A stretch of 64,000 bases of DNA from Luminiphilus syltensis NOR5-1B (GTDB lineage: Bacteria; Pseudomonadota; Gammaproteobacteria; Pseudomonadales; Halieaceae), in contig NZ_DS999411.1 of assembly GCF_000158175.1 (NCBI RefSeq), positions 605,009 through 669,008 on the forward strand, written 5' to 3'. Below are positions 37,358-57,916 of this stretch, piece after piece. The notes beneath the pieces were generated by a model. It did no database searches, had not been told where the DNA came from, and was given only the letters and a program-made list of their open reading frames with translations. The position numbers were made by a program, and so were the translations under genes. Position 1 is the stretch's first letter; the number at the start of each line of letters is the position of its first letter.

Positions 37358-37364
37358 GAGTATC

Positions 37365-38138
37365 TCAGCCCTCACCCATCATTTCATCAACGGTAGGGAT
37401 ACGCCTTAGCGTCTGCCCCGCCGAGACATCGAGCACGACACCGGTCGCGAAGCAATCGTCGCTCGCCAGCCAGGCTGCGGCTTTGGCAATATCGAGTACC
37501 GACGCGAGTCGAGGCAGGGCAATCTCTTTTTTAAACGCCTTCTCGACCGTCGGCATCTGCAGATAGGCCTCTGTCATGGCGGAAGGGGTAAATCCGGGGG
37601 CGACGGCATTAACTCGAATGCCCCGGGCGCCGTATTCATTGGCCGCGATTCGCACCACGTGATCGGCGCCCGCTTTGGCGCCCGCGTAGGCTGCAAGTCC
37701 GGGGGGCGCGAGGAGCGCCGTTTGCGATGACGTGGTAACGATGGCACCGCCATCGCTCATTTTCTCCGCCATAAAGCGGATAAACATGACGGTACCGGCC
37801 AGATGAACATCGGCGCTGTGCATCACGGCATCGCGAGTGAGTTCGGCGATGGCGCCTCCGGCCTCAACACCGGCAAAATTGAGCGCCACATCCAGCTGGC
37901 CAAACTGTTCAACGGCAAAACTCGCGAGCCCTTCCAGCTGCTCATCGCTGGTAATGTCACAGGTAAATGCGGCACAACCCAGATTCTTGGCGAGCGCGGC
38001 GACCTTTTCCCCGGAACGTGACGCGACAACCACCTGCGCTCCCGATTCAAGACAATACCTGGCGGCGGCGGCACCCATACTGCGTTCATCGGATGCGCCC
38101 AAAACGACGACTACCTTACCTTCGAGTAACCCCATCAC
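37365..38138 (-). CDS. Short-chain dehydrogenase/reductase 1
   Basis: The 257-residue Rossmann protein has an unusual nucleotide loop (GASDERSMGAAAARY), NFAGVE in place of NNAG, a catalytic Ser in TTSSQTALL and YAGAKAGADHV (Tyr/Lys). Its last ~20 residues (GQTLRRIPTVDEM) resemble the tail of the SDR at 47188-47988 (GGLCLRRNPRANEL), so the two form a distinct subfamily. It probably oxidises or reduces an alicyclic alcohol or ketone. Confidence 0.88.
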   Translation of the reverse strand: MMGLLEGKVVVVLGASDERSMGAAAARYCLESGAQVVVASRSGEKVAALAKNLGCAAFTCDITSDEQLEGLASFAVEQFGQLDVALNFAGVEAGGAIAELTRDAVMHSADVHLAGTVMFIRFMAEKMSDGGAIVTTSSQTALLAPPGLAAYAGAKAGADHVVRIAANEYGARGIRVNAVAPGFTPSAMTEAYLQMPTVEKAFKKEIALPRLASVLDIAKAAAWLASDDCFATGVVLDVSAGQTLRRIPTVDEMMGEG

Positions 38139-38209
38139 TATCTCCCTCCTACCTTGTCTGTCTTGTCTGTTGTTGTGCCTGATCAGTGCCGCCGAAGCAG
38201 TGAAACGGC

Positions 38210-38734
38210 CTATACCGGCCAGTTGCGCAGGCTGCTGAAATCCCTGCCACCACGCTGGCCGAAGGGAACCCTGGGGTTCTGCTCGCGGAAATCCTGATCG
38301 GTGGCGGGATCATTGCGGACCCAGTCGACAATTTCATAGCGTTTGACGATTCGCCAGTCACCAGCGCGACACTCGTATTCATCCACGTAGCGGCCCGATA
38401 CCAACAGATCGAAGGCGTTGTCACCGTCAATGACGCGATGCTGGGCGAAAAAGTAAATTTCACCCTCGGCACGATCACCATGGATGCTGATATCCATTTG
38501 CCCAAGAATATGTTGGCTGGATTCCAGGTCAGACAAAAAACCCTGGGCGAATGCAACAAACTCCTCTGCCGATCCCGCCATCAAACCGCAGTCCACGTAG
38601 GCGCCTTCATGGAAGGCGGATCGGTGTAGATCCGGATCGAGTCGGTCCTGGCCACGGATGTAGCGCATACAGGCTGCAGCGATGTCTCGACGCGCAGCGA
38701 GATCCCGCACTTCAGCTTCTAAATCAAAGGCCAT
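38210..38734 (-). CDS. SnoaL-like (NTF2-fold) protein 1
   Basis: The 174-residue protein has the SnoaL_4-like pattern: RRDIAAACMRYIRGQDRLD, AFHEGAYVDCG, SSQHILGQMDISIHGDRAEG and SGRYVDEYECRAGDWRIVKR. Such proteins act as cyclases, isomerases or dehydratase-like accessory enzymes; the specific role is not readable. It is first in the minus-strand unit that ends with the MDR at 35987. Confidence 0.82.
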   Translation of the reverse strand: MAFDLEAEVRDLAARRDIAAACMRYIRGQDRLDPDLHRSAFHEGAYVDCGLMAGSAEEFVAFAQGFLSDLESSQHILGQMDISIHGDRAEGEIYFFAQHRVIDGDNAFDLLVSGRYVDEYECRAGDWRIVKRYEIVDWVRNDPATDQDFREQNPRVPFGQRGGRDFSSLRNWPV

Positions 38735-38777
38735 AGCGTCGCCCTACACTTATTATTAGTTTGGTGACTATCGCACA

Positions 38778-38830
38778 GCCGTTTTTAAATAACAAACAAT
38801 GTTGACTGTTTTTAAGTAAGCCGATACGGT
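38778..38830 (+). promoter_or_regulatory. Promoter of SDR 2 with flanking direct repeats
   Basis: TTGACT (38802-38807), 17 bases, TACGGT (38825-38830). Two copies of GTTTTTAARTAA (38781-38792 and 38808-38819) sit 27 bases apart, one within the spacer, in the gap between two divergent genes. They may be binding sites for a regulator or AT-rich promoter flanks. Confidence 0.45.
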
Positions 38831-38918
38831 CAGCAACCAATGTCGCCGGGTTCGCACTCGAGCATTAATCAGTGGGCGGCCAGAAATCCGGACCACTCAT
38901 CATAAAAAAGGGGGATAT

Positions 38919-39674
38919 ATGGAACTGAGGCTGGATGGAAAAGTTGCGCTGGTGACGGGCGGCGGTAAGGGTTTGGGCAGAGCTTGCGCACTGGCCTTTG
39001 CGCGCGCCGGCGCCGATGTCGCCATTTGCGACGTCGACGAAACGGCGGCCGCAGCGGTTAAGGCTGAAATTGAAGCCGCAAACCAGCGCTGTTTTACCGG
39101 CAGCTGCAACGTGAGCAGCGCCGCCGAGGTAAAGGAGTTCTTCCACGGCGCCGTCGAGGCGCTGGGTAGCCTGGATATCACGCTCAACAACGCCGGCGTA
39201 TCAGCGCCGATAGTACCCCTCGCAGAGACTGAAGAAGCGGATTTCGACCGCTTGATGTCGGTCAACCTAAAGGGGGTGTGGCTGTGTCTGCGGGAAGCTC
39301 TGCGCATCATGGAGCCCCAGGGACAAGGCAATATCATCAATATGGATTCCGCCCTGGGACGACGAACTTTTCCTGGCGTTGGCCTTTACGTCAGCAGCAA
39401 ATTCGCGGTGGCGGGTCTGACTCGTAATACCGCCATCGAGTACGCCGAAAAGGGTATTCGCATTAACGCCATGTGTCCGGGGAACGTGGCAACGCCACTG
39501 TTGGTGTCGTCAACTACCGAGGAAATGCAGGGCATTCTCGCGGATCAACACCCTATGAAGCGCCTGGGTACCGAGGAGGAGATTGCCAATCTTGCTCTTT
39601 TTCTCGCCAGTGATGCATCGAGCTTTATGACCGGTGAGCTGGTTGCCGCTGATGGCGGATGGACCGCCCTCTAA
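38919..39674 (+). CDS. Short-chain dehydrogenase/reductase 2
   Basis: This 251-residue classical SDR has the GGGKGLGRA nucleotide loop, D-V-D after strand 2 (favouring NAD), NNAGVS, MDSALG (the catalytic-Ser region), YVSSKFAV (Tyr/Lys) and the C-terminal GELVAADGGW. It is a single-gene plus-strand unit; the Rieske ferredoxin gene converges on it 5 bases away. Confidence 0.92.
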   Translation: MELRLDGKVALVTGGGKGLGRACALAFARAGADVAICDVDETAAAAVKAEIEAANQRCFTGSCNVSSAAEVKEFFHGAVEALGSLDITLNNAGVSAPIVPLAETEEADFDRLMSVNLKGVWLCLREALRIMEPQGQGNIINMDSALGRRTFPGVGLYVSSKFAVAGLTRNTAIEYAEKGIRINAMCPGNVATPLLVSSTTEEMQGILADQHPMKRLGTEEEIANLALFLASDASSFMTGELVAADGGWTAL

Positions 39675-39679
39675 GACGA

Positions 39680-39991
39680 TTAGCTGACGTCAACCTCAAG
39701 CTGCCCGTTTTCGACCCGCACGGGGAAGGTTCGAACAGGAACCCGGGTGAGCTGACCCATCGGCTCACCGTCCTTCAGGTTAAAGCGTACTCCGTGCAGC
39801 GGACAGGAGATGAAGCATCCGCGGATGCGTCCACCCTCGAGCTCGGCTTCCTGGTGGGTGCATCGATTCTCGACCGCATAAAATTCATTGCTGGCACGGC
39901 ACACCAATATTTTCATTCCGGCCAGTTCGACCGCTTTGCCGCTGTTGTTTTCCAGCACGTCGGCCGCAAAGGCCACCTGATAATCCGACAT
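39680..39991 (-). CDS. Rieske [2Fe-2S] ferredoxin
   Basis: The 103-residue soluble protein has the Rieske ligand pairs C44-x-H46 (RCTHQE) and C63-x-x-H66 (SCPLHG), with no membrane segment. It is probably the electron donor to one or both Rieske oxygenases of the region (41700, 55609). No matching reductase gene is in view. It is transcribed away from the MDR gene at 40166. Confidence 0.93.
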   Translation of the reverse strand: MSDYQVAFAADVLENNSGKAVELAGMKILVCRASNEFYAVENRCTHQEAELEGGRIRGCFISCPLHGVRFNLKDGEPMGQLTRVPVRTFPVRVENGQLEVDVS

Positions 39992-40084
39992 GTCTTGCTC
40001 CGATCAATAACGTAAAGGCCAGCAAACGAACCAACCTGAGAAAGGGATAGAGGATAGCACTGAGGCAGCCAATAAAAAAACCGT

Positions 40085-40118
40085 CAAGCTTGCTTTAATT
40101 TTTCCGGGTGTTTAGTCT
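40085..40118 (+). promoter_or_regulatory. Promoter A with CAAGCTTGCTT element
   Basis: CAAGCTTGCTT (40085-40095) contains the -35 TTGCTT (40090-40095), followed by 17 bases and TAGTCT (40113-40118). The same element and geometry recur at 43896 and 49005. Confidence 0.7.
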
Positions 40119-40165
40119 AGCTCCGCTAACCTCAAAATTCCGCCATAAAAAAACCGGAGAGCACC

Positions 40166-41188
40166 ATGCTGCCCACATCCAAACGACAGTGGACGCTTGC
40201 CAAGCGACCCCACGGTGTTCCCAGCACCGATGAAGTAACCATTGAGGAAAAAACGATCGGCGAGCTGCCGCCCGGTCACCTGCTGGTCGAAAACCATTAT
40301 TTCTCGCTGGATCCGGCGATTCGCGGCTGGATGTCCGATGCCCCCTCCTACTTGCCGCCGATACCTCTGGGAGAGCCCGTACGCTCTACCGTATGCGGCA
40401 AAGTACTCGCCAGCACCAGCGATGGATTTGCAAAGGGCGATCTGGTGTATGGCATGGGTGCCTGGGAAACCCACGGAGTCGTACCCGCCGAATTCTTCAC
40501 CAAAGTTCCCGAAGACAATACCTTCCCGCTTCACTACTACGTGAATATGCTGGGAGCCGTTGGTCTCACGCCGTATTTTGGCGTGATCGAAGCCGGCAAG
40601 GCCCAGGCAGGGCAAACCATGCTTATGAGCGCCGCCGCCGGCGCGGTGGGGTCAATCGGCGGTCAGATCGCCAGGCTTATGGGCCTACGGGTGGTCGGTA
40701 TGGCGGGGTCCGACGAAAAATGCCGTTGGGTCACCGACGAGCTCGGCTTCGATGACTGTATCAACTATAAAACCTGCGGCGATATGGTCGACGCGATTGC
40801 AAAGGCCTGCCCGGAGGGCGTGGATCTGTTTTTCGACAATGTCGGCGGCGAAATTCTCGACGCGGCACTGATGAACCTGAACAGCGACGCCATCATCGTT
40901 TTCTGCGGCGCGATCAGTAGCTATAACGCTACCGAGCCCGTGCCCGGCCCCTACAACTGGTGGCAGGTACTCGCCCGAAGCGTGACCATTCAGGGGTATT
41001 TGATCAAAGACTATTTTGATCGCTTCCCAGAGGGGCAGGCCCAGATGTCCGAGTGGCTCAACGAGGGCAAAATCCAGTTCAAGGAACACATGGTGGACGG
41101 ATTTGATAACACCCTCGATGCCTTTTCACTGCTCTTTAGCGGTGGGAACGAGGGAAAGCTCATGGTCAAACTCGAAGCCGCCGACTAA
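40166..41188 (+). CDS. NADP-dependent zinc-less MDR oxidoreductase (PTGR-like), copy 2
   Basis: The 340-residue enzyme has SLDPAIRGWM, MLMSAAAGAVGSIGGQIARL as cofactor loop, the basic NADP pocket around DEKCRW and DLFFDNVGGEILD. It is closer to copy 3 (43965) than to copy 1 across most landmarks. A role in reducing an enone intermediate or a prostaglandin-like conjugated ketone is inferred. It is a single gene under promoter A. Confidence 0.9.
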   Translation: MLPTSKRQWTLAKRPHGVPSTDEVTIEEKTIGELPPGHLLVENHYFSLDPAIRGWMSDAPSYLPPIPLGEPVRSTVCGKVLASTSDGFAKGDLVYGMGAWETHGVVPAEFFTKVPEDNTFPLHYYVNMLGAVGLTPYFGVIEAGKAQAGQTMLMSAAAGAVGSIGGQIARLMGLRVVGMAGSDEKCRWVTDELGFDDCINYKTCGDMVDAIAKACPEGVDLFFDNVGGEILDAALMNLNSDAIIVFCGAISSYNATEPVPGPYNWWQVLARSVTIQGYLIKDYFDRFPEGQAQMSEWLNEGKIQFKEHMVDGFDNTLDAFSLLFSGGNEGKLMVKLEAAD

Positions 41189-41262
41189 CGTTCAGGCTAT
41201 TGCAAACAACAAAGGCCTATCGCGGATTTCAGAGGTCGCCAGTCTCCCCTCAGAAGCCTCGC

Positions 41263-41276
41263 GTATGACGTCATAC
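41263..41276. repeat. Perfect 14-bp palindrome
   Basis: GTATGACGTCATAC is fully self-complementary and lies 75 bases after the stop of the MDR gene. It lacks a T-run, so it is not a typical terminator; it could be a protein-binding site. Confidence 0.8.
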
Positions 41277-41307
41277 CTGACCCGGGCGGCTCAGCCCCGG
41301 ATTACTC

Positions 41308-41526
41308 GAGCTGCTCGCGTAGCTCCATCGGCGATGGCGTATTAAACCGCTCGCTCGTCGACGCTCGAGCAAACCGCCGCCGAGCCACCCTAAGCAATCG
41401 CTGCAAGTACAGTCGAAGCAACCCCGACGATGGCACCGCCACGAGGTGAGGTGGGCGGGAGTGCTTTGAGCGTCGACGAGCAATTCCGACAGTGCGCTGG
41501 CCCTGCTGGAGCTACGCGAGCAGCTC
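41308..41526. repeat. Large inverted repeat element in the 41.2-41.7 kb gene-free gap
   Basis: The 20-mer GAGCTGCTCGCGTAGCTCCA (41308-41327) recurs inverted at 41507-41526. A second 14-mer GCTCGTCGACGCTC (41353-41366) recurs inverted at 41468-41481, at the same 45-base offset, so each arm is about 59 bases with a diverged 25-base interior. The gap of 510 bases (41189-41699) otherwise has no recognised gene, apart from the palindrome at 41263 and a terminator. It may be a MITE, a REP/BIME-like pair (each arm carries GTAG followed by palindromic sequence), or remnants of an inverted duplication. Confidence 0.8.
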
Positions 41527-41650
41527 AAAGGACTACCGCCTGCCTCACCGACTTCAATAAAGAGGAGGTGGTAATCAGCGATTGCCGTTCAGCGGACTGA
41601 TGAAGGTTCTGTGCAGGTCTTGATCCCGCCAAAATCCGCGATGAAGAAAA

Positions 41651-41684
41651 AAGCCCGCATTGGCTTCAATGCGGGCTTTTTTTA
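41651..41684. terminator. Rho-independent terminator at the Rieske oxygenase 3' end
   Basis: Perfect 12-bp stem AAGCCCGCATTG/CAATGCGGGCTT with loop GCTT. A T-run follows on the plus strand and an A-run precedes it, so it can act in both directions. It lies 16 bases beyond the minus-strand oxygenase stop. Confidence 0.9.
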
Positions 41685-41699
41685 TCGGTCAGACCATTA

Positions 41700-42875
41700 T
41701 CACAAGGTGGGTTCAGGCGCCGACTCGTCACCGTTCACATAGTACTTGATCCACTTGTGCACGTACTGGTTGGCGCGTTCGTTGCGACCGAAGATCACAT
41801 CCTTTTGATGGCCCGCCTGTAAACCGCGCTGCACCTGCAGTCCCAACTGGTAGTCCTCTTTGTCGACGACGTCACGGAGCCAGTCGACCATCTCAACTCG
41901 CGCCTGTGCTTCCGCCTCATCGGCTGGCGGCTCGGGGTGCAGGAAATGAAGAATCGTTGTGTTCTGGTCCACCGTTGGGCCCGGTATCAACTGGGCGACC
42001 TGAGTAATTTCGGGAGCGACAAAAATAGAGACGTTGGGGAAAAACAGGCGAATGTAGTCATACCCATCGTTCTCAAATTTCCAGAGATCTTCCTCCGGGG
42101 TGTCCTTGTGCTTGAGGATGCCTTTCTGCGGAAATCCAATAAAGACGTGGGGGCCATGGGCATCGAACTCCATGATATTGGAAAATGTTCTGGGCTCGAT
42201 GGTTTCCGGGTGCGCAGCCTTGAAGTGATAGCCTTCAAGATAACCGTCGTAGGCGATTTTCCAGTTGGCGCCATGGATCACGCGGTTTCCAACATAGCTC
42301 CAGTCTTTAAAGCCCTTTTGGACCACATCATCCATCATACCGCCCAGATACGAACGAATATCCACCGTCGAATCGGGGTCGAGTACCGCAAATAAAAGGC
42401 CGCCCTCTTCGTGAGAAGGAAACTCAACCAGATCTCGATCGCCCCGGCAGTCTTCACCGAACTTGGGCGCTTCAGCGACTCCGCGCAGGGTGCCGTCCCC
42501 ACTGAACGACCAGGCGTGATAAGGGCAGGTAAAGACCCGCTTGTTGCCGCTCTCCGCCTGGGTCAAGGTCATACCTCTATGGGTACAGACATTCATAAGC
42601 ACCTTGGCGCTGCCATCGGCCTGCCGGGTGATTAGCAGCGGCACGCCCTGGTAATCGCGGGTGAGGAAGTCGCCGGTTTCCGGGATCTCATGAGACACCG
42701 CAACCATCACTGGCAGCTTTTTAAATATCGCGGCCACTTCTTTTTCATAAAAGGCAGGATCGGTGTATTGGGATGAATCCACGCGCATGGTGCTCTCGGC
42801 CCAGTCAGTGGTGCCGTTTTCAACGTGCTCCATCATGCGCTTGATAATCTTGGTATAACGCTCTGCAAGTTCCAT
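41700..42875 (-). CDS. Rieske ring-hydroxylating oxygenase alpha subunit 1
   Basis: The 391-residue protein starts at ATG 42875 (TTAGGAGA upstream; the longer open frame is rejected). The Rieske domain has C97-x-H99 and C117-x-x-H120 (MNVCTHRG, TCPYHAW). The mononuclear iron site is seen in NWKIAYDGYLEGYHFKAAHP (H217, H222). It hydroxylates an aromatic or alicyclic substrate using the ferredoxin. No beta subunit gene is adjacent, so an alpha-only oxygenase is likely. It is last in the unit SRPBCC-ABM-oxygenase. Confidence 0.93.
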   Translation of the reverse strand: MELAERYTKIIKRMMEHVENGTTDWAESTMRVDSSQYTDPAFYEKEVAAIFKKLPVMVAVSHEIPETGDFLTRDYQGVPLLITRQADGSAKVLMNVCTHRGMTLTQAESGNKRVFTCPYHAWSFSGDGTLRGVAEAPKFGEDCRGDRDLVEFPSHEEGGLLFAVLDPDSTVDIRSYLGGMMDDVVQKGFKDWSYVGNRVIHGANWKIAYDGYLEGYHFKAAHPETIEPRTFSNIMEFDAHGPHVFIGFPQKGILKHKDTPEEDLWKFENDGYDYIRLFFPNVSIFVAPEITQVAQLIPGPTVDQNTTILHFLHPEPPADEAEAQARVEMVDWLRDVVDKEDYQLGLQVQRGLQAGHQKDVIFGRNERANQYVHKWIKYYVNGDESAPEPTL

Positions 42876-42912
42876 TATTTCTCCTAATCGCTCAGCGGTG
42901 CGTAAAGCCCGG

Positions 42913-43230
42913 CTATTCGGGCATCTCGACCGGGCCCATGGCGGAAACCGAGTATTGCCTTGCATCCAGGCTCTTGATGTCCAGCCCACCGACGGTCTGC
43001 AGGAACTCGAGGATGTGTGGCGCGCGCAGGTGATCGTCGAGATGCTGTTTACTCGCCCACTGCTCAGAAATCCAAATGACGTTGGGATCACAGATATCAA
43101 CGGCCATGGCATACATCTCGCAGCCCGCTTCCTTCCGAGTGGGTTCGATCAATTTACGCGCCGCTTCAACATACTTCGGGGCGTCCTCCGCCGATAATTC
43201 GGTGCGTGCGATAATGGCTAAGGTATTCAT
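42913..43230 (-). CDS. Antibiotic-biosynthesis-monooxygenase (ABM) domain protein
   Basis: The 105-residue dimeric alpha-beta-barrel protein has RKLIEPTRKEAGCEMYAM and WISEQWASKQHLDDHLRAPHI, the ABM signature. Family members act as cofactor-free monooxygenases or detoxifying enzymes. CAGGAAC lies before the start. It sits between the SRPBCC and oxygenase genes. Confidence 0.85.
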   Translation of the reverse strand: MNTLAIIARTELSAEDAPKYVEAARKLIEPTRKEAGCEMYAMAVDICDPNVIWISEQWASKQHLDDHLRAPHILEFLQTVGGLDIKSLDARQYSVSAMGPVEMPE

Positions 43231-43251
43231 ATTCCAGTTCCTGTTTTTGGA

Positions 43252-43722
43252 TTATTGTGTGGATGCAGCGTCATTTGAAGCACGAGCCCTATCGGCCGCC
43301 TGCTGCAGCCCATCGAACATCATTTGGTAGGCACCGCGAAGAAACGTTTCCGCCTCCTGCTCCCTGCCCGGTTCGGTTCTGAACTCCCCTCGATAAGAAA
43401 TTCCGCAGCTACCGTCATCTGACGGATGCAACTGTCCGGTAGCGGTGTACTGCACAAGGCCCGCAGGCCGCTCGCCAACTATCGCGAGTTGCCAGCGGTA
43501 GATTTCAGGATCAAGAGCCAACAGCTGTTCGCTGACCGCATGACTAAAGCCGGCATTGTAAATATGGCGAGTCATGCCGATGCCCTCGCCGTCGATATCG
43601 ACACGTTCAATGTCGATCGCCTGCCCCTGTGGCCACCACGCCTCGATATTGCCGAAGTCGACGATCAGGGGCCAGATAAAGTCAGGGTCGGCATCCAGCG
43701 AGTGTTCAACCAGCAATTCCAT
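43252..43722 (-). CDS. SRPBCC-fold (polyketide cyclase/START-like) protein
   Basis: The 156-residue protein, started at ATG 43722 with GGAGATAACA before it, has a START-like pattern: VEHSLDADPDFIWPLIVDF, then EAWWPQGQAI and TATGQLHPSDDGSCGISYRG with a C-terminal helix (AETFLRGAYQMMFDGLQ). The fold binds hydrophobic ligands. It is the first gene of a three-gene unit whose predicted promoter is divergent from promoter B. Confidence 0.85.
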   Translation of the reverse strand: MELLVEHSLDADPDFIWPLIVDFGNIEAWWPQGQAIDIERVDIDGEGIGMTRHIYNAGFSHAVSEQLLALDPEIYRWQLAIVGERPAGLVQYTATGQLHPSDDGSCGISYRGEFRTEPGREQEAETFLRGAYQMMFDGLQQAADRARASNDAASTQ

Positions 43723-43869
43723 TGTTATCTCCAACACAGCACAAAGGCAGGGCGTGCCATGAACGTTATTGTTGTGCCCACGGACGGACCTGTTGGCTAT
43801 CGTTTTTCAGTCGCTCCGCAGCAGCGAGAGTGTATAGCAAACGCGTGTTTTTAGCCTGGCTCAACGCCG

Positions 43870-43933
43870 AGGCTAGGCACCCGGCAATAAAAAGTCAAGC
43901 TTGCTTGCTTTTTTCTCAGGCGTCACCTAATCT
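43870..43933. promoter_or_regulatory. Bidirectional promoter B around a CAAGCTTG palindrome
   Basis: Plus strand: CAAGCTTGCTT (43896-43906), -35 TTGCTT (43905-43910), 17 bases, TAATCT (43928-43933), reading toward the MDR at 43965. Minus strand: TTGACT (43893-43898), 17 bases, TAGCCT (43870-43875), reading toward SRPBCC. Both -35 regions touch the palindrome, so one bound regulator could control both directions. Confidence 0.7.
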
Positions 43934-43964
43934 CGTGTCAAATAATCAGCAAAGACATCACATT

Positions 43965-44993
43965 ATGTACCCATCGAAACAGCGCCAACTGGTGCTGCGA
44001 CAACGGCCAACGGGGCTTCCCACCGAACAGGATATCGAGCTCGCTGAGGGTGACGTTAAACCACCGCAGCCGGGCGACGTGGTTATCAAGAATCTCTATT
44101 TATCGCTGGATCCTGCGCAGCGGGATTGGATGAATGACGCGGTCTCCTACCTGCCGCCTATTGCCATCGGCGAGGCCATACGCAGTACAACCCTGGGCCA
44201 GGTCGTTGCCAGCGAGAGCGACGCCCTCGCCGTTGGCGACTTCGTCATCGGATTGGCAACCAACGCCTGGGAGGAATACAGCACCACCCCCGCTGAGCAA
44301 CTTGAAAAGGTGGACAACAGTGAGTTCCCCCTGCACTACCATTTGACAATTCTCAGCGGTGCCATGGGTCTGACTCCCTATTTCGGCATGCTGAAACTGG
44401 GACTGCCAGCCCCCGGCAAGACGGTACTCATGAGTGCCGCGGCCGGTGGCGTTGGCTCGATTGCGGGCCAGATAGCGAAGTTACACGGGTGTCGCGTCGT
44501 GGGTATCGCCGGTGCCGACGAGAAGTGCCAGTTCATCTGCGACGAGCTCGGATTTGATGACGCCATCAACTACAAGGCGGTAGACGACCTTACAGCGGCC
44601 ATCGCGGAAAAGTGCCCTGAAGGGATTGATATCTATTACGACAATGTGGGTGGTGAAACCCTCGATGCGGCACTACTGAATCTGGCGCAGGGCGCCCGGG
44701 TGGTCTTCTGTGGCGCCATTTCCACCTACAATGCCGACGGCCCGGTACCGGGTCCTTTCAATTACTGGCAGGTGCTGGCCAAAGGTGCGAGCGTCCACGG
44801 CCAGATGAACCTCAAATACGCCGACGAGTACCCTGCGGCAATCGAGCAGTTGAAAGCGTGGGTGCGTTCCGGTGAGCTCAAATTTGCCGAACACATTGTT
44901 GAAGGTATTGAAAACACCGTCGATGCCTATCGCATGCTGTTTACCGGCGGCAATAAAGGCAAGCTCATCGTCAAGATCGCAGATCCAGACTGA
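43965..44993 (+). CDS. NADP-dependent zinc-less MDR oxidoreductase (PTGR-like), copy 3
   Basis: The 342-residue enzyme starts MYPSKQRQLVLRQRP; the open frame upstream is rejected because it crosses promoter B. Motifs: SLDPAQRDWMND, VLMSAAAGGVGSIAGQIAKL, ADEKCQFICDELG and DIYYDNVGGETLD. It shares the SYLPPI-IGEAIRS and ETLDAALLNL-type segments with copy 2, indicating recent common origin. The SDR gene follows after 47 bases, so the two are likely an operon. Confidence 0.9.
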   Translation: MYPSKQRQLVLRQRPTGLPTEQDIELAEGDVKPPQPGDVVIKNLYLSLDPAQRDWMNDAVSYLPPIAIGEAIRSTTLGQVVASESDALAVGDFVIGLATNAWEEYSTTPAEQLEKVDNSEFPLHYHLTILSGAMGLTPYFGMLKLGLPAPGKTVLMSAAAGGVGSIAGQIAKLHGCRVVGIAGADEKCQFICDELGFDDAINYKAVDDLTAAIAEKCPEGIDIYYDNVGGETLDAALLNLAQGARVVFCGAISTYNADGPVPGPFNYWQVLAKGASVHGQMNLKYADEYPAAIEQLKAWVRSGELKFAEHIVEGIENTVDAYRMLFTGGNKGKLIVKIADPD

Positions 44994-45040
44994 ACTCAGT
45001 CTCGAAATCACAGCAAACGAACAGTTAACGGAGCAAATTT

Positions 45041-45817
45041 ATGAGTGGCAAGCTGCAGGGTAAAGTGGCGCTGATTACGGGTGGCACCAACGGTATTGGT
45101 AAAGCGGCCGTCGAGGGTTTTACCCGCGAGGGAGCCTCCGTCATCTTTACCGGAAACAACGAGACCGCTGGTGCTGATATCTCGCAGGCAACCGGTGCCA
45201 CCTTTGTCAAGCATGCGGTGCAGGATGTGGAGGGCTGGAAAGCATTGGTGGCACAGATTCGTGCTGAACACGGTCGTCTTGATATTGCCTTTGCCAATGC
45301 CGGTACCAACTCCGGCGACAGCAATATCGAGGACGTGGAAGTCGATGCGTGGAAGCGGCTGATCGATATCAATTTGACAGGGGCGATGCTGACGATTAAG
45401 TCGGCGGTCGAACTCATGCGAGAAAATCCCGGTGGGCCCAGCGGTTCCATCATTCTCAACAGTTCGATCAATGGCATTCTGGCCTTGGCGGGCGATGTCA
45501 CCTATTCCACCACCAAAGGCGCACTGCGCCTGCTGGCGAAGTCAACCGCGGTACACCTGGGTAAATCCGGTATCCGCTGTAATACCATCCACCCCGGTGT
45601 TACCGAGACGCCTTTGATTGAAGGCGCGATCAACAGCGCCCCGGATCAGGCGGCGGCGCGAAACATGCTGGAAAACGTAGCTCCCATGGGTCGCATGGCG
45701 AAGATGGAAGAGATCGTGTCCCTGGTGATGTATCTGGCTTCTGACGACGCCAGTTTCGTCACCGGCTCCGAGCTGGTTATCGACGGGGGCTCAACCGCAG
45801 GGTTGCCCGGCGTCTAA
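45041..45817 (+). CDS. Short-chain dehydrogenase/reductase 3
   Basis: This 258-residue classical SDR has the loop TGGTNGIGKA, FANAGTN, LNSSINGIL (catalytic Ser), YSTTKGAL (Tyr/Lys) and the C-terminal GSELVIDGGS. CGGAGC precedes the start by about 9 bases. It is probably co-transcribed with MDR copy 3 and ends at a bidirectional terminator. Confidence 0.92.
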   Translation: MSGKLQGKVALITGGTNGIGKAAVEGFTREGASVIFTGNNETAGADISQATGATFVKHAVQDVEGWKALVAQIRAEHGRLDIAFANAGTNSGDSNIEDVEVDAWKRLIDINLTGAMLTIKSAVELMRENPGGPSGSIILNSSINGILALAGDVTYSTTKGALRLLAKSTAVHLGKSGIRCNTIHPGVTETPLIEGAINSAPDQAAARNMLENVAPMGRMAKMEEIVSLVMYLASDDASFVTGSELVIDGGSTAGLPGV

Positions 45818-45841
45818 ACTCAGTTTAAGGGTATAAAAAAC

Positions 45842-45865
45842 GCGAGAGAAATCTCGCCTTTTTTA
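45842..45865. terminator. Rho-independent terminator, convergent units
   Basis: Stem GCGAGA/TCTCGC (45842-45847, 45852-45857) with a GAAA tetraloop. Six A precede it and a T-run follows, so it can end both SDR 3 (plus) and the SnoaL gene (minus). Confidence 0.85.
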
Positions 45866-45878
45866 TGGTGCGATACCG

Positions 45879-46286
45879 TTATTCACCGTGGAGGACTTTG
45901 AACTTCCTGAGGGAAAATTTCCACTCTCCGTCAACCTTGACACACTCGTCGTGGTACTCACCCCGCGGACGTATTTCATTGCCATCCTGGGTAACCGCGA
46001 CTTCGGTGGTATAAGAGCGCATGGTCGCTTTGTCACCAGTGACCTCGATGACGCCAGGCTGTGCCATCATGTTGACGAAAGGAAACAACTTCATGGCTTC
46101 GACCCAGGCCGAGACAATATTTTCTCGGCCCTGAATGCCCGACATTTCCAGGTGCGGGAGTTCCCATACCGCGTCCTCGGCCCAGGTACCACCCCAGATC
46201 GTCGCATCCCTCTGGTTGACGCCGTCGCAGTAGCGATCCAATAGCGCCCTGATTGCCAACTGGTCCATGAGTGTGTTGTCCGTCAT
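45879..46286 (-). CDS. SnoaL-like (NTF2-fold) protein 2
   Basis: The 135-residue protein has MDQLAIRALLDRYCDGVNQRD, WAEDAVWELP and the HDECVKVDGEWKFSLRKFK end, a SnoaL_4 pattern. The D-R-Y near the N-terminus parallels the other SnoaL proteins here. It is third in the minus-strand unit SDR 5-SDR 4-SnoaL. Confidence 0.85.
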   Translation of the reverse strand: MTDNTLMDQLAIRALLDRYCDGVNQRDATIWGGTWAEDAVWELPHLEMSGIQGRENIVSAWVEAMKLFPFVNMMAQPGVIEVTGDKATMRSYTTEVAVTQDGNEIRPRGEYHDECVKVDGEWKFSLRKFKVLHGE

Positions 46287-46335
46287 TCGGTTCTCCCCAG
46301 TAAAAGTAGTCGGTGCTGTTTGGCCTGCAAGACCG

Positions 46336-47100
46336 TCAGACGCTGATCAGTCCGCCATCAATAACCAGCTCGGTGCCGGTTACATAGCTGGACATGTCAG
46401 ACGCCAGGAACAGCGCCGCGTCGGCAATCGATGAAGGTGGCCCCATATACCCCATGGGGATTTTATCGACGATAATTTTGTACTCTTCCGGATTATCAGT
46501 GGCGGCCTGGGCGTTCATATTGGTGAGGATCATACCCGGATGGAGTGTGTTGCATCGGATGCCCTGCCGCGCCGTTTCAGCGGCGACCGCTTTGGTAAAT
46601 CCATGGACGCCCGCCTTGCTCGCTGCGTAGGCCGTAACACCCACCACGCCCACCAAAGCGGCGACCGAAGACATGTTGACGATGGAACCCTTGATGTCAT
46701 CCTCGCGCATCATTTCAACAACCAGTTGTGTGCCCATGAAAACGCTGGTCATGTTCACACTCATCTGCTTTTCGTAATCCGCCATGGTGAAGGCTTCCAG
46801 CGGCTGGAGCACGGCGATTCCGGCGTTGTTCACCAGCACATCGATACGTCCATAGTCCGACTTGATCCTGGCCAGTGTCGCAACCCATTCGTCCCGCGAG
46901 GTCACATTCTGTCCCCAGCCCACCGCGGTACCACCGGCGTCGTTGATCTCAGAAGCGGTACGTTCGGCGCCCGCCCCGTCCATATCGGTAACGATCACCG
47001 TGGCGCCCTGCTCACCGAATCGGTGGGCAATCGAGTGGCCCAGTCCGGGATTGGAGGCCGCGCCCGTGATGAGGCAAACCTTGTTTTCTAATAAAGCCAT
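46336..47100 (-). CDS. Short-chain dehydrogenase/reductase 4
   Basis: The 254-residue SDR starts at ATG 47100 (AAGGAATAT upstream). Loop TGAASNPGLGHS is longer than the usual TGxxxGxG. NNAGIAVL, MSSVAALVG, YAASKAGV (Tyr/Lys) and GTELVIDGGL are present. The D-M-D after strand 2 favours NAD. Confidence 0.91.
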   Translation of the reverse strand: MALLENKVCLITGAASNPGLGHSIAHRFGEQGATVIVTDMDGAGAERTASEINDAGGTAVGWGQNVTSRDEWVATLARIKSDYGRIDVLVNNAGIAVLQPLEAFTMADYEKQMSVNMTSVFMGTQLVVEMMREDDIKGSIVNMSSVAALVGVVGVTAYAASKAGVHGFTKAVAAETARQGIRCNTLHPGMILTNMNAQAATDNPEEYKIIVDKIPMGYMGPPSSIADAALFLASDMSSYVTGTELVIDGGLISV

Positions 47101-47187
47101 CTGGATATTCCTTCGCTGGAGGTAAAAAGTGTGTTGGGGTTTTTGTTCATTCACTGCCCATTACGACAGCTTCCGGGTATCTTGCGG

Positions 47188-47988
47188 TCAGCCGGGAATC
47201 TCGCCAGCGGCAACCATCGCTGCCTGAAGCTCGTTGGCCCGAGGATTTCTGCGCAGACAAAGGCCACCGTTGACCTGCAGATTTTCGCCCGTCATAAAAC
47301 AACGGTCAGAGGCCAAAAAAAGTGCGGCTTCGGCAATGTCTTCCGAGGTGCCGTATCTACCCAGTGGGTAGCACTTGGCAAATTCCTGCTTCAGCGCTTC
47401 ACTCTTTAGCGCCTCTGATGTCATAGGGGATTCCGTCAAGCCCGGCGAAATCGAGTTAGCCCGTATTCCCACCTCGCCATATTCGTTGGCGACGGTGCGG
47501 ATGACATGGTCGATACCCGCCTTGGTACCCATGTAAGCCGCATGGTTATCGAGCATTATTTTCGCGGTCGCGGATGAAATCTGGATGATCGAGCCGCCGC
47601 CCTGAGCGGTCATCACCTTAACCAGGTGCTGAAGCCAGATAAATGGGCCCTTGAACTGAAGATCGACCATCCGATCGAGCTCCGCTTCCGTGGTCTCGGT
47701 GAGCGGCGTCAGCAGCCCCCACCCGGTCGCATTGATGGCAACGTCAACACGTTCAAACTGCGCGACGTGCTGCTCGAACATTGCCGAGATCGAACTCCGA
47801 TCACAGAGATCACAGTGAAGCCAATGGCCCCCTATCTCCGATGCAAAACGCCCCAGTGCGTCATTGTCACGGCCCGATACCACGACGGTTGCGCCTTCTT
47901 CCGCAAACCGTCGCGCCATGACCTGACCCATGTTGCCGGGTGTGCCAGCGCCGACTATTGACACCACTTTTCCTGAAAACGCGCCCAT
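47188..47988 (-). CDS. Short-chain dehydrogenase/reductase 5
   Basis: The 266-residue SDR has an unusual loop GAGTPGNMGQVMA, NATGWG in place of NNAG, ISSATAKIM, YMGTKAGIDHVIRTVANEYG and the tail NGGLCLRRNPRANEL. It is close to SDR 1 (37365) in loop, active-site and tail, so the two form a paralogue pair within the region. First gene of its minus-strand unit, with a promoter at 48028-48056. Confidence 0.9.
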   Translation of the reverse strand: MGAFSGKVVSIVGAGTPGNMGQVMARRFAEEGATVVVSGRDNDALGRFASEIGGHWLHCDLCDRSSISAMFEQHVAQFERVDVAINATGWGLLTPLTETTEAELDRMVDLQFKGPFIWLQHLVKVMTAQGGGSIIQISSATAKIMLDNHAAYMGTKAGIDHVIRTVANEYGEVGIRANSISPGLTESPMTSEALKSEALKQEFAKCYPLGRYGTSEDIAEAALFLASDRCFMTGENLQVNGGLCLRRNPRANELQAAMVAAGEIPG

Positions 47989-48027
47989 TTATTCTCCGAC
48001 TTATCGTTATTTTTCAGACAGAACAAA

Positions 48028-48056
48028 ACATTACAGCATGTTTTTTTCTAGCACAA
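48028..48056 (-). promoter_or_regulatory. Candidate promoter of the SDR 5 unit
   Basis: On the minus strand TTGTGC (48051-48056), 17 bases, TAATGT (48028-48033). The spacer contains AAAAAAACATG. No CAAGCTTG element is present here. Confidence 0.5.
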
Positions 48057-48149
48057 CAGCGGCTGTCAGCGAATGGCATTCCCCGGGGAACGCGAGAGAG
48101 GTGATCTGCCGGCACCAGTGCCGGCTGAGTAGTGCAAAAGCGCTGTCGG

Positions 48150-48875
48150 TCAGTCCGCCTCGACCTGATAAATCCTCATCAGCGTGTCGGTAACCAGATC
48201 GATCACCCGGTCTGCCCGCTTCTTCTTTTGACTGCCCATATGGCTGTTCGCCATACCCTGCATCACAAACTGGACAAGGTCGTGGGCCGCCTCCAGAGAC
48301 TGCACCTTGGTCCAGTGGGGGAATACGGTTTTTACCGTCTGCAGGAACTGGCGGTCAAAGTCCTTCTCGACATCGGCAATGATATCCCCGAGTTCGGCGT
48401 CGGTTCTCGACGCTGCACGCAGCTCCTCGTAAGCCACAAAAGAAGGCAGATTCACGTACTTCCATGCCGCCACCACCGACTTTCGGATGCTTTCACGCTC
48501 CAGTGCGGCCTCAGGATCGTCGATATTTTGCATCAGTTCCCGATATTCCATCAGACGAGTCGCGTGCAGATGGGACACCACGGCCTGCAGTACCGCAAAA
48601 CGTGAGGGAAAGTGATGCATCATGGCACCCCGGGAGACCCCCGCCTGCGCCGCTATCAATGCGGTAGTGGTGCGGGTATAGCCACGCTCGACAAAACACG
48701 TGATTGCCGCGTCAATAATCGCCTTGCGCGTCATCGCGCTCTTTTCCGCCTGCCAGCCGTCGCCGTTGGCCCTCACTTTCTTCGCCTTTTGACGCACGGC
48801 TGTGCTGCTGCGGTCAGATCCATCACCGGCGTCTCCTGTTCGCGAGTCCAAATTTGTCATGTCCTGCTTCCCCAT
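48150..48875 (-). CDS. TetR-family transcriptional regulator
   Basis: The 241-residue protein has a long polar N-terminal tail (about 45 residues) before the HTH (RKAIIDAAITCFVERGYTRT, then AQAGVSRGAMMHHFPSRFAV), and an all-helical ligand domain. A start at 48860 (MTNLD) is also possible. It is divergent from the 2-oxo acid dehydrogenase operon; the shared gap holds promoter C. As the only pathway-type regulator in the catabolic region it is the best candidate for binding CAAGCTTG, which is inference. Confidence 0.9.
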   Translation of the reverse strand: MGKQDMTNLDSRTGDAGDGSDRSSTAVRQKAKKVRANGDGWQAEKSAMTRKAIIDAAITCFVERGYTRTTTALIAAQAGVSRGAMMHHFPSRFAVLQAVVSHLHATRLMEYRELMQNIDDPEAALERESIRKSVVAAWKYVNLPSFVAYEELRAASRTDAELGDIIADVEKDFDRQFLQTVKTVFPHWTKVQSLEAAHDLVQFVMQGMANSHMGSQKKKRADRVIDLVTDTLMRIYQVEAD

Positions 48876-49004
48876 AGCGGATCCCTGTCATCGCGACGTA
48901 AAGCTGCACCGGGCAGTCTCCACAGGTGCTCTTAACGGCGTGCGACGTAAAGCTAAGTTTAATCACAGACGGACTTTCTGTGAGTCGCGTTTATATCAAA
49001 CAAT

Positions 49005-49038
49005 CAAGCTTGCTTTTTTTATGGGCCACTCCTAGTAT
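49005..49038 (+). promoter_or_regulatory. Promoter C with CAAGCTTGCTT element
   Basis: CAAGCTTGCTT (49005-49015) with -35 TTGCTT (49010-49015), 17 bases, TAGTAT (49033-49038). It lies between the divergent tetR-like gene and the E1 alpha gene and likely drives the large operon 49071-57816. Confidence 0.7.
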
Positions 49039-49070
49039 CGTAGGGATCGATAAAAACTTTAAAAGGTACT

Positions 49071-50042
49071 GTGGCAATGGCGCTGTCTTCTGAAGCACTG
49101 CACAAGGTTTACTACACGATGACGACCATCCGGCAGTTCGAAGAGCGGATGATCAAGGAATTCATGGCCGGTAATATCCCGGGGTTTGTTCATACCTATG
49201 ATGGCCAGGAGGCCGTCGGTGTCGGCATCTGCACCCACCTGACCGACGAAGATATCATCGGCAGTACGCACCGCGGTCACGGCCACTGCATCGCCAAAGG
49301 CTGCGATATTGAAGCAATGATCCTGGAAATCATGGGCAAGCAGGGCGGCCTGTGTAACGGCAAAGGCGGCTCGATGCACATCGCCGATTTTGATCGCGGC
49401 ATGCTTGGCGCAAATGCCATTGTCGGTGGTGGTCCGCCGCTGTGTAACGGGGCGGCGCTGTCGGCAAAAACCCTGGGCACCAAGAACATTGCGGTGTCGT
49501 TCAGCGGCGACGGCTCCTCCAACCAGGGCACCGTCATGGAGGCGCTGAATCTGGCGGGGGTTCTCGACTTGCCCCATATCTTTATTTTCGAAAACAATCA
49601 CCTGGCCGAGGGAACCGGCGACGAATACGCCGTTTCGGGCGATATCGCCAACCGAGTCGCCTCTTTCGATATCCCCGCGGTCAAGGTGGACGGCCTCGAC
49701 TTCTTCGCGGTCTACGATGCCATGGAGAAGGCGGTGGAGCACACCCGATCAGGTAAGGGCCCTTACGCCATCGAGGCGGACGTCATTCGTTTTGACGGAC
49801 ACTTCATCGGCGATCCGCAGGCGTACCGCGGTGAAGGAGAGCTCGATGACCTTCGCGCCAACAAAGACTGCCTGAAAATCTTCCGCAAGCGTGTCACCTC
49901 CGAGGGTCTCATGACCGACGACGAGCTGGATATGCTGGATGCACAGGCCGGCGATGCCATTGAGCAGGGCGTACAGCGGGGATTGGCAGCGCCACAACCC
50001 GCCGTCGAAGAACTCTACACCGACGTCCACGTCAGCTACTGA
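49071..50042 (+). CDS. 2-oxo acid (pyruvate/acetoin-type) dehydrogenase E1 alpha
   Basis: The 323-residue TPP-dependent subunit has the phosphate/Mg motif GDGSSNQG (146-153), THRGHGHCIA and the GGLCNGKGGSMHIAD loop. GTG 49071 or ATG 49077 may start translation (AAAAGG upstream). The heterotetrameric E1 form and the AcoA-like loop suggest an acetoin or pyruvate-like 2-oxo acid donor rather than 2-oxoglutarate. The E1 beta gene follows 15 bases on. Confidence 0.93.
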   Translation: MAMALSSEALHKVYYTMTTIRQFEERMIKEFMAGNIPGFVHTYDGQEAVGVGICTHLTDEDIIGSTHRGHGHCIAKGCDIEAMILEIMGKQGGLCNGKGGSMHIADFDRGMLGANAIVGGGPPLCNGAALSAKTLGTKNIAVSFSGDGSSNQGTVMEALNLAGVLDLPHIFIFENNHLAEGTGDEYAVSGDIANRVASFDIPAVKVDGLDFFAVYDAMEKAVEHTRSGKGPYAIEADVIRFDGHFIGDPQAYRGEGELDDLRANKDCLKIFRKRVTSEGLMTDDELDMLDAQAGDAIEQGVQRGLAAPQPAVEELYTDVHVSY

Positions 50043-50057
50043 ATAAAGGAAATAACA

Positions 50058-51092
50058 ATGTCAGAGTCAGCCGTTAACGAGCACCCCGTCAAAACATTGC
50101 GAGAAGCACTCAATGAGGCACTGCATCAGGAAATGGAACGCGATTCCCGCGTCATTATCATGGGCGAGGAAGTGGCCGGTGGCGCCGGCTGTAAAGGCAG
50201 CGACGAGGCCTACGGTGGTGTCTTCGGCGTAACCAAGGGCCTGGGGACCAAATTCGGCCGCACCCGCGTTATCGATACCCCCATCACCGAATCGGCGATT
50301 ATCGGCGCCGCCGCCGGCGCCGCCAATACCGGGCTGCGCCCCGTCGCCGAACTCATGTTTATTGATTTTATCGGCGTCTGCTTCGACCAGATCTTCAACC
50401 AGGCGGCAAAATTCCGCTATATGTTTGGCGGCAAAGCCCGCACCCCCATCGTGATCAGGGGTACAGCCGGTGCCGGTATGCGCGCTGGCGCACAACACTC
50501 GAGCATGCTGCACCCGGTCCTGACGCACATACCGGGGCTCAAGGTCGTCATGCCCAGCAATGCCTACGACGCCAAGGGCTTGATGATCTCCGCTATACGG
50601 GACGATGACCCGGTCGTATTTATCGAGCATAAACTGCTCTACGAGACCAAGTGTCCGGTCCCCGACGAGATGTATACGATTCCCTTTGGGGAGGCTGCCT
50701 TTGCCCGTGAGGGTTCCGATGCCACCATCGTCGCTTTCGGTGCAATGGTGCCCAAAGCCATTGCTGTCGCCGACAAGCTGGCGAAAGAAGGCATCCACTG
50801 CGACGTCATCGACCCGCGGACGACATCGCCCCTTGACAGCGAGTCCATTCTCGAAAGCGTTGAGGTGAGTGGCCGCTTGATCTGCGTCGACGAAGCCAAT
50901 CCGCGCTGTAGCCTTGCCGCTGACGTCTCGGCCATTGTCGCGGAACATGCGTTTTCTTCGCTGCGCGCACCGGTCAAGTGCGTTACCGCTCCGCACACAC
51001 CCGTGCCGTTCGCACCCGTTCTCGAAGATGCCTACATCCCCAGTGAAGCAGCTATCGAGCAGGCCGTTCGAGAAACCCTCGGAGGTCGATAA
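50058..51092 (+). CDS. 2-oxo acid dehydrogenase E1 beta
   Basis: The 344-residue subunit shows LREALNEALHQEMERD, IMGEEVAGGAG, DTPITESAIIGAAAGAANTG, MFIDF and GTAGAGMRAGAQHSS, the transketolase-like pyrimidine domain with the catalytic Glu in DTPITE. The C-terminal transketolase domain follows. It overlaps the E2 start by one base, indicating coupling. Confidence 0.95.
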   Translation: MSESAVNEHPVKTLREALNEALHQEMERDSRVIIMGEEVAGGAGCKGSDEAYGGVFGVTKGLGTKFGRTRVIDTPITESAIIGAAAGAANTGLRPVAELMFIDFIGVCFDQIFNQAAKFRYMFGGKARTPIVIRGTAGAGMRAGAQHSSMLHPVLTHIPGLKVVMPSNAYDAKGLMISAIRDDDPVVFIEHKLLYETKCPVPDEMYTIPFGEAAFAREGSDATIVAFGAMVPKAIAVADKLAKEGIHCDVIDPRTTSPLDSESILESVEVSGRLICVDEANPRCSLAADVSAIVAEHAFSSLRAPVKCVTAPHTPVPFAPVLEDAYIPSEAAIEQAVRETLGGR

Positions 51093-52582
51093 TGGCTAAC
51101 TTGAACAAGGTAGCCATGCCCAAGTGGGGCATGGAAATGACCGAGGGTGAAATCGCCGATTGGCATGTCTCCGTAGGGGACACCATCGATATGGGCGATG
51201 ACGTTGTCGATGTCGAAACCGCAAAGATCGTCAACACCGTTACGGCTTCATCGTCGGGAACCGTCGTCAGAATTTGCGCCAACACCGGCGACATCGTGGC
51301 TGTGGGTGCGCCGCTTGTCGTGCTTGCCGACGGCGACGCCACCGACGATGAAATCGACGCGTTTATGGGCTCAGGTGCACCCGACCCCGCCGACGTGGCT
51401 GTCGAGGAGGCTCCCGCCGCACCCGGTGAATCACCCGCCGCTGAAACCGCGGAGCCCGCGACCCCGGTTGCAACCAGGCCGTCGGCTTCCTCCAGCCTCA
51501 GCGCTGGCGGCGATGACAGCGAAGTGCCGGCCACGGTGGTCGCCCGACGCCTGGCCAAGGCCAATAATATCAACCTGAATAATGTCAGCCCCAGCGGTCG
51601 GCACGATCGTGTGACCGTCGAAGATCTCCGGAGCGCGGCTGATGCGGCCAATGTGGCTGTCGACCTGCCCGCGGGACGCGACTTCGGCGAAGCGGTACTG
51701 CCTGATGACAGCGGTGTGAAAGCGAGCCCTGTTGCCCGAAGATTGGCTGCCGAACTGGGTATTAACCTGAACGAATGTCGACAATCGGGCCGTCACGGTC
51801 GGGTCAGCAAGGCCGATGTCGAAGCCGTTGCCGCGAGAACAAAATCGGCAACCTCCTCCAGCGCCGAGCCTACCGGAACCGCGGCGCCGCCTGAGTCTCT
51901 AGCACCCGTGCGAACCCAGCTGAGCGGCATGCGCAAGGTCATCGCGCAGCGCGTGCATCAGTCGAAGCAATCTATTCCTCACTTCAGGGTGAACATTGAT
52001 GTCGACGTCACCGAGGCGATGGCACTGCGAAAACAGCTCAATGCGCATCGAACCGATGTCAAAATTTCATTAAATGACATTCTGATCAAGGCCTGCGCCT
52101 GCGCGCTTCAGCAAAACCCGGCACTCAATGCCCGTTTTGATGGCGAAACCCTCGAGCAATTCTCCGAATGCCATATCTCATCGGCGGTTGCCATCGACGG
52201 CGGGGTCATGATGCCTGTGCTTCGATCAGCAGAACGGCATGGACTCGCCAGCATATCTTCCGCCATGCGTGACCTCGCTACTCGAGCCAAAGTAGGTCGG
52301 CTCAGCGGTGAGGAACTCGATGGTGGCAGCTTTAGTATCAGTAATCTTGGCATGTTCGGGATTAGCAGCTTTGATGCGATCATCAATGCGCCCCAGGTCG
52401 CAATCCTCGCCGTCGGCAGCGCGGAGAAGAAGCCCGTCATCCGCAATGATGAGGCCACCGTCGGCCAGATAATGAGCCTCAGCGTGGCAAGCGATCACCG
52501 GGTGGTGGACGGTGCCGATGCGGCGCAGTTCCTTGCTGATCTGAAAGCGCTCATTGAAAATCCTGCAATGATGCTGGGCTGA
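51092..52582 (+). CDS. 2-oxo acid dehydrogenase E2 (acyltransferase) with two subunit-binding domains
   Basis: The 496-residue protein has one lipoyl domain (residues 1-80; lipoyl K45 in VETAKIVNTV), an Ala/Pro-rich linker, two peripheral subunit-binding domains (about 145-185, VVARRLAKANNINL; about 210-250, PVARRLAAELGINL) and a catalytic CAT domain with H469 and D473 in SDHRVVDG. Most E2 proteins have a single binding domain. The lipoyl context lacks the DKA of pyruvate E2, resembling acetoin-type E2. Confidence 0.94.
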   Translation: MANLNKVAMPKWGMEMTEGEIADWHVSVGDTIDMGDDVVDVETAKIVNTVTASSSGTVVRICANTGDIVAVGAPLVVLADGDATDDEIDAFMGSGAPDPADVAVEEAPAAPGESPAAETAEPATPVATRPSASSSLSAGGDDSEVPATVVARRLAKANNINLNNVSPSGRHDRVTVEDLRSAADAANVAVDLPAGRDFGEAVLPDDSGVKASPVARRLAAELGINLNECRQSGRHGRVSKADVEAVAARTKSATSSSAEPTGTAAPPESLAPVRTQLSGMRKVIAQRVHQSKQSIPHFRVNIDVDVTEAMALRKQLNAHRTDVKISLNDILIKACACALQQNPALNARFDGETLEQFSECHISSAVAIDGGVMMPVLRSAERHGLASISSAMRDLATRAKVGRLSGEELDGGSFSISNLGMFGISSFDAIINAPQVAILAVGSAEKKPVIRNDEATVGQIMSLSVASDHRVVDGADAAQFLADLKALIENPAMMLG

Positions 52583-52586
52583 TCGC

Positions 52587-55575: not shown

Positions 55576-55608
55576 GTACAGACATAATGATTTTTCGGAG
55601 GATGAGCG

Positions 55609-57816: not shown

Positions 57817-57830
57817 GCGGTTTAGCATTA

Positions 57831-57864
57831 CCCTCTGTAGCAGGGGGGGGTTAACAGCAGAGGG
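57831..57864. repeat. G-run inside a 7-bp inverted repeat
   Basis: CCCTCTG (57831-57837) pairs with CAGAGGG (57858-57864), enclosing an eight-G tract (57843-57850). It is not followed by a T-run. It lies between the ThuA and DUF3604 genes and may be a weak hairpin or simply repetitive DNA. Confidence 0.5.
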
Positions 57865-57916
57865 CGATCTAGCAAGATAGCTCCCGATGGATTTGCAGCA
57901 CGAGAGAAATAATAAA

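Follow-up and report, generated by a model that had tools for sequence, protein, structure and literature searches.

Introduction

KstR2, according to the available text of PMC3068626, is a TetR-family repressor of part of cholesterol catabolism in mycobacteria and rhodococci. Here we examine a stretch of 64,000 nucleotides (the window; positions 605009-669008 of the 3,261,541-base single-contig genome of Luminiphilus syltensis NOR5-1B), in which a TetR-family gene lies in an island of catabolic genes and three promoters share the sequence CAAGCTTGCTT; a preliminary description had proposed these promoters as a regulon. Compared with KstR2 as that text presents it, the locus is alike in having a TetR regulator beside divergent catabolic operons, in involving several promoters of one coenzyme A (CoA)-dependent pathway, and in palindromic operators found through promoter comparison among orthologs of the regulator. 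It differs in its enzymes, in belonging to another bacterial phylum, and in its operator: the KstR2 motif given there, AnCAAGnnCTTGnT, is 14 bp long and brings its half-sites 2 bp nearer to each other than here. As a candidate motif for this locus, AnCAAGnnCTTGnT was rejected, as it stands near the TetR gene in none of 53 loci of relatives (at most one mismatch) and the sites of this genome differ from it by 4-5 positions. KstR2 appears neither among 60 of the 82 solved chains that match the protein by sequence nor among its best 50 fold matches.

EthR2 (Rv0078) shares the TetR fold with the protein encoded here (6hrz_A, Z 14.2, root-mean-square deviation (rmsd) 3.6, 185 residues, 22% identity). 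It is not special in this respect, many TetR proteins scoring as high (for example IcaR, 2zcn_A, Z 15.6, rmsd 3.0, 175 residues, 15% identity); neither a subfamily nor a ligand can be read from the fold match.

A candidate 18-bp operator at the shared promoters

The three motifs are very probably pieces of one 18-bp operator of the adjacent TetR protein (Table 1), which would repress the catabolic island, as judged from sequence comparison. CAAGCTTGCTT was found, as described, on the forward strand at 40085, 43896 and 49005 (mean in shuffled windows, 0.02). No further copy exists in the whole genome, which has two matches to the pattern read backward; their lying within 9 kb is a genuine clustering. 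The genes downstream are likewise those named, namely two medium-chain dehydrogenase/reductase (MDR) oxidoreductases, MDR1 and MDR2, and the E1/E2/E3 operon of a 2-oxo acid dehydrogenase, with the TetR gene transcribed divergently from the third site.

By comparison with relatives, CAAGCTTGCTT is a fragment of a larger inverted repeat of 18 bp, AAACAnnC-nn-GnnTGTTT. At the three promoters the right arm of this predicted operator is GCTTGCTT, the last six bases of which are the -35 element. The identical spacing of 17 bases that had been claimed between the shared TTGCTT and the -10 element holds at sites 1 and 3, while at site 2 it is 21 bases; there, a second, overlapping TTGCTT gives 17 bases and is the working -35. 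Measured from the operator end, all three promoters thus have TTGCTT, 17 bases, and then TAGTCT, TAATCT or TAGTAT.

Of 65 TetR loci, 53 (L064-L116) form the main count, many of them from the genus and hence not independent, and the 12 weakest (L117-L128) were counted apart. The comparison of symmetry in distant relatives covered 52 loci (L065-L116), and one further set comprises 51 (L064-L114). Allowing at most one mismatch, AAACAnnCnnGnnTGTTT occurs within 400 bp upstream of the TetR gene in 44 of the 53 loci and anywhere in 51, and its reversed control in none, near or anywhere; patterns with the spacer lengthened or shortened by 2 occur near the TetR gene in 2 and 2 loci and anywhere in 8 and 3, respectively. 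CAAGCTTGCTT itself lies within 400 bp upstream of the TetR gene in 0/53. The preliminary description had taken CAAGCTTG for the palindromic core, which does not withstand this comparison: it lies off the true dyad and is exact in only 3 of the 53 loci (same distance). That dyad was dropped, the orthologs carrying CCAGCTTG, CCGGCTTG, CTTGCTTG and others instead. Cleaner inverted repeats are present in more distant relatives (AAACAAGCAAGTTTGTTT in Zhongshania, AAACATGCATGTCTGTTT in several Porticoccaceae), and Shewanella corallii, whose TetR protein is 38% identical, has three exact operator sites. No operator site was found in the 12 loci with distant TetR matches.

Could the shared sequence be a mere conserved sigma-70 promoter (TTGCTT, 17 bases, TAnnnT) that does not act as an operator? 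The right arm does coincide with the -35 element, and the -10 element is conserved along with it. Nevertheless, we hold this to be very unlikely, as the left arm AAACnnnC, upstream of the -35, is invariant in 50/50 elements, and the inverted repeat is also found outside this promoter position (for example at the TonB-receptor site described below) and is symmetric in distant relatives.

Conservation in the genus

TetR orthologs were found in 25 of the 56 other genus genomes (56-69% identity). The gene divergent from TetR is that for E1 in L005 and L006 and a thiolase gene in 22 loci, L012 being obscured by masked bases; in the window, a thiolase gene is also present, farther down the E1 operon. 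The element stands before the E1 or thiolase genes beside 26/26 genus TetR genes. In all 26 TetR-side gaps (own included), the left side of the element reads AAACAAnC and its right end TTGCTT, with the full GCTTGCTT in 24, and majority-base identity reaches 0.89 and 0.99 in two operator bins versus 0.38-0.53 farther out. Similarly, AAACnnnC is on the left in each of the 24 MDR1 orthologs counted (our own among them; L058-L060, truncated at contig ends, are excluded), and 21 have GCTTGCTT on the right; the right arm is weaker in L040, L050 and L057, the last two of which score low. The site-2 promoter is kept before a short-chain dehydrogenase/reductase (SDR) gene in 13/13 loci gathered with the SDR sequence as seed, L083 being seen partly, and it also precedes an MDR2-like gene in Parahaliea. 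The spacing to the -10 is 17 in 17 of 18 MDR1 promoters (one without a fit) and in 13/13 SDR promoters. The conservation profile comprises 18 of the 24 MDR1 promoters, the rest having no flank in the stretch extracted, and, for the SDR promoter, 12 relatives plus our own, excluding L083.

These data also bear on the notion that the MDR paralogs, which are 54% identical, simply retained a promoter after duplication and that the third copy is coincidental. We regard this as extremely improbable: the E1 operon is unrelated to the MDRs, each promoter is separately conserved in relatives, with the site-2 element preceding SDR, and the chance expectation is near zero by shuffles, by whole-genome count and by the matrix scan given below.

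Predicted sites across the genome

A matrix built from 78 sites of relatives was scanned over the window plus 17 kb (81 kb) and, at a cut-off of 14, gave nine places versus 0.13 expected. Those within the window are 38794, 40078, 43889, 48026 and 48998 (with the overlapping register 49002), and those beyond it are 64391, 64482 and 76997. The restriction to three promoters was too narrow: more sites exist at 38794-38811 and 48026-48043, with another two close behind the window end and two at a greater distance. On the open reading frame map, each of the island's five promoter-bearing gaps has a site (38734-38919, 39991-40166, 43737-43965, 47988-48150 and 48875-49071), and the matrix scan gave no operator places in the convergent gaps of the island (36-57 kb).

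With at most one mismatch, the operator occurs at 16 places genome-wide, 6 of them in the island, versus 2 for the reversed pattern. It had been argued that the proposal would fall if the element were equally common before unrelated genes; genome-wide, it is not. One exact operator, at 2189776, precedes by 38 bases a gene whose product has a TonB plug domain; this receptor gene is unlinked, ~1.5 Mb from the island, and is missed by reading the neighbourhood alone. Zhongshania aquimaris and Shewanella corallii likewise have matrix sites in front of TonB receptor genes, which in these species lie inside the cluster. Places 64391 and 64482 have a SnoaL-like gene on one side and an acyl-CoA-synthetase-like gene (read from its translation) on the other; after the latter come two acyl-CoA dehydrogenase genes and one SDR gene. 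Place 76997 precedes a WS/DGAT frame by 44 bases. Another exact-pattern site, at 1860757, falls within an open frame that reads as an enoyl-CoA-hydratase-like gene and was taken as chance.

Model R1 (with alignment A2) was made from 40 of 44 distinct elements, excluding our own sites 1 and 2, L050 and L057 and including our own site 3; of its seven matches in the genome, the top five are the three promoter sites and the two sites close behind the window. Model R2 (with alignment A4), of 20 positions, was made from 64 of 78 distinct sites, and its list holds 682004, 2189776, 669490, 669399, 654006, 643802 and one likely chance match; 1460071 (R2 E-value 1.4), inside an open frame, was taken as chance.

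Does the adjacent TetR protein own the site?

Model R1 matches 29 of the 57 genus genomes, including all 26 with a TetR ortholog and 3 of the 31 without (Fisher p = 3e-13). Since these same genomes supplied the elements behind R1, its matches are partly given by construction, and the informative part is its absence from 28, which are also without a close MDR1 ortholog. The exact palindrome was found in 18 of the 57 genomes, at 24 places versus 3 for the reversed control.

Several observations weigh against the operator as we propose it. No near site was found in 9 of the 53 loci (L085, L090, L091, L095, L097, L101, L109, L112 and L115), and three genomes of 67-83% completeness (G017, G023, G044) carry the element without a detected TetR gene. 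The exact palindrome is present in 7 genus genomes that are without this TetR, in two of which it adjoins other TetR genes (L032/L031: G016:C69:35287 and G048:C36:4186). The TetR-side -10 spacing is 18 in 16 of the 26 orthologs and 17 in the other 10. At site 2 the matrix score is 16.8 for the register 43889-43906 versus 11.3 for 43893, the latter being favoured by spacing, by model R2 and by the symmetry conserved in relatives. Finally, with 150 of 1031 candidates scored, the whole-genome E-values of R2 are weak (best 0.014), and 40078, 43893 and 48026 are absent from its list.

Given the palindrome in TetR-less genomes and beside other TetR genes, a sibling regulator could share the operator. 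That the site is real and belongs to another regulator, such as a sibling TetR with the same half-site, would fit G016 and G048 as well as the five further TetR matches in our own genome (E <= 0.001); we consider it very unlikely. The site tracks this TetR gene across the 53 loci (near it in 44) and is absent from the 12 distant ones, and no element match was found in 28 of the 31 genus genomes in which this TetR is absent, although the same number are also without a close MDR1 ortholog. The common operator of the divergent TetR protein, put forward in the preliminary description as defining the catabolic unit, has good support from its conservation, its placing and its co-occurrence with the gene, although the operator had been misread, the register at site 2 differs and the unit is larger than supposed.

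It should also be noted that a variant site like AAACAGCCC(T/C)(T/C)GATTGTTT recurs in G014, G016, G036, G037 and G043. Judging by these variant sites and the other TetR genes, a sibling regulon is likely.

The TetR protein

By domain and fold the protein is a TetR regulator, and it fits no named subfamily tested. Its helix-turn-helix (HTH) domain, PF00440, scores 54.6 bits versus a curated cut-off of 24. The model (pLDDT 83.8) has the all-helical two-domain fold of the family; 806 of 1000 compared chains reach Z >= 8, the best being TetR proteins, and the fold comparison indicated no clear TetR subfamily. Sequence matches to solved TetR proteins lie mostly on the HTH. The same is true of the ScbR family (NF041196), which the protein matches in the HTH only, at 50.3 bits versus a whole-protein cut-off of 150 bits. 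TetR regulators bind palindromic operators, often at their own promoters, and the predicted operator sits in the gene's own intergenic region. In an alignment of 24 TetR proteins the recognition region, SRGAMMHHF, does not vary, which appears in keeping with a steady operator.

Proposed regulation and the catabolic island

The TetR repressor would act on its own gene and on the promoters of an island for CoA-dependent catabolism, with MDR, SDR, Rieske, 2-oxo acid dehydrogenase, thiolase, acyl-CoA-synthetase-like and acyl-CoA dehydrogenase genes, as well as on the WS/DGAT gene and the unlinked TonB receptor. Since the right arm contains the -35 of the MDR1, MDR2-SDR and E1 operon promoters, binding of a dimer there would block access of RNA polymerase. 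Such an overlap with the -35 is a usual layout for repression by occlusion among TetR repressors. By analogy, release would follow once the repressor binds an intermediate of the pathway, perhaps a thioester of CoA.

The enzyme families of the island (Table 1) suggest that its substrate is a hydrophobic, probably ring-bearing compound, broken down via CoA. Steroid breakdown is predicted for an OM60 member in the available text of PMC4810484. For the two Rieske oxygenases, no steroid-hydroxylase name is among the PDB matches listed at 1e-10, other steroid genes not having been searched for; a steroid pathway is one possible role of the island. The operator that ties in the distant TonB receptor offers a route to identifying the substrate.

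In its widest form, the proposal is that a previously undescribed TetR regulon across Halieaceae, Porticoccaceae/SAR92, Zhongshania and Shewanella turns on a whole import-to-CoA pathway, probably for a hydrophobic ring-bearing substrate, that operator and -35 are fused in Luminiphilus, and that the operators name the pathway genes, including the TonB receptor; for this whole we see the chances as evenly balanced. Among the literature matches listed, there is no description of this regulon. For a catabolic island present in many marine gammaproteobacteria, the analysis names a regulator, an operator and a set of genes that can be tested.

Table 1. Predicted operators and genes of the island, in window coordinates
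Feature	Position	Strand	Remarks
TetR-family regulator, 241 residues, proposed repressor	48150-48875	-	TetR_N 9.4e-15
Operator 1, AAACCGTC-AA-GCTTGCTT	40078-40095	+	-35 40090-40095, -10 TAGTCT 40113-40118; before MDR1; matrix 19.2
Operator 2, AGTCAAGC-TT-GCTTGCTT	43893-43910	+	-35 43905-43910, -10 TAATCT 43928-43933; before MDR2-SDR; register uncertain
Operator 3, AAACAATC-AA-GCTTGCTT	48998-49015	+	-35 49010-49015, -10 TAGTAT 49033-49038; between TetR and E1 operon; matrix 24.7
Operator, AAACAATG-TT-GACTGTTT	38794-38811		Between SnoaL-like gene (38210-38734, -) and SDR (38919, +); 1 mismatch; matrix 23.1
Operator, AAACATTA-CA-GCATGTTT	48026-48043		Upstream of SDR-SDR-SnoaL genes (47988 to 45879, -); 1 mismatch; matrix 19.4
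MDR3, EthD, SDR, SnoaL genes	35987-38734	-	SDR read from translation
SDR gene	38919-39674	+	Read from translation
Rieske-ferredoxin-like gene	39680-39991	-	Divergent from MDR1; read from translation
MDR1 oxidoreductase (ADH_N_2, ADH_zinc_N)	40166-41188	+	Domain search
Rieske oxygenase 2, small monooxygenase-like, polyketide-cyclase-like genes	41700-43737	-	Divergent from MDR2; Rieske start uncertain; monooxygenase-like from translation
MDR2 oxidoreductase	43965-44993	+	ATG at 43965; 54% identical to MDR1
SDR gene downstream of MDR2	45041-45817	+	Read from translation
SnoaL-like gene and two SDR genes	45879-47988	-	Read from translations
2-oxo acid dehydrogenase E1 alpha, E1 beta, E2, E3 genes	49071-53990	+	
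ChsH2-like OB-fold gene, thiolase, Rieske ring-hydroxylating oxygenase	53999-56991	+	

Neighbouring genes

At 57004-62661, ThuA-like, DUF3604 and PPIase-like genes lie 3' of the Rieske gene on the same strand, followed by a PQQ beta-propeller gene on the other strand; a literature search returned no paper combining DUF3604 and Rieske. Past the window, the acyl-CoA-synthetase-like gene is split across two frames (L146:2640-3584 and 3602-4258), from either a sequencing error or a real break. A GFA-domain gene (L140:1574-1981) adjoins the operator of the unlinked TonB receptor, and another (L107:17573-18082) is near an operator in HTCC2080. The WS/DGAT gene with its operator is followed by lipase-like, phasin-like and second TetR genes, read from translations (L146:15068-18751), a neighbourhood hinting at a link with storage lipids.

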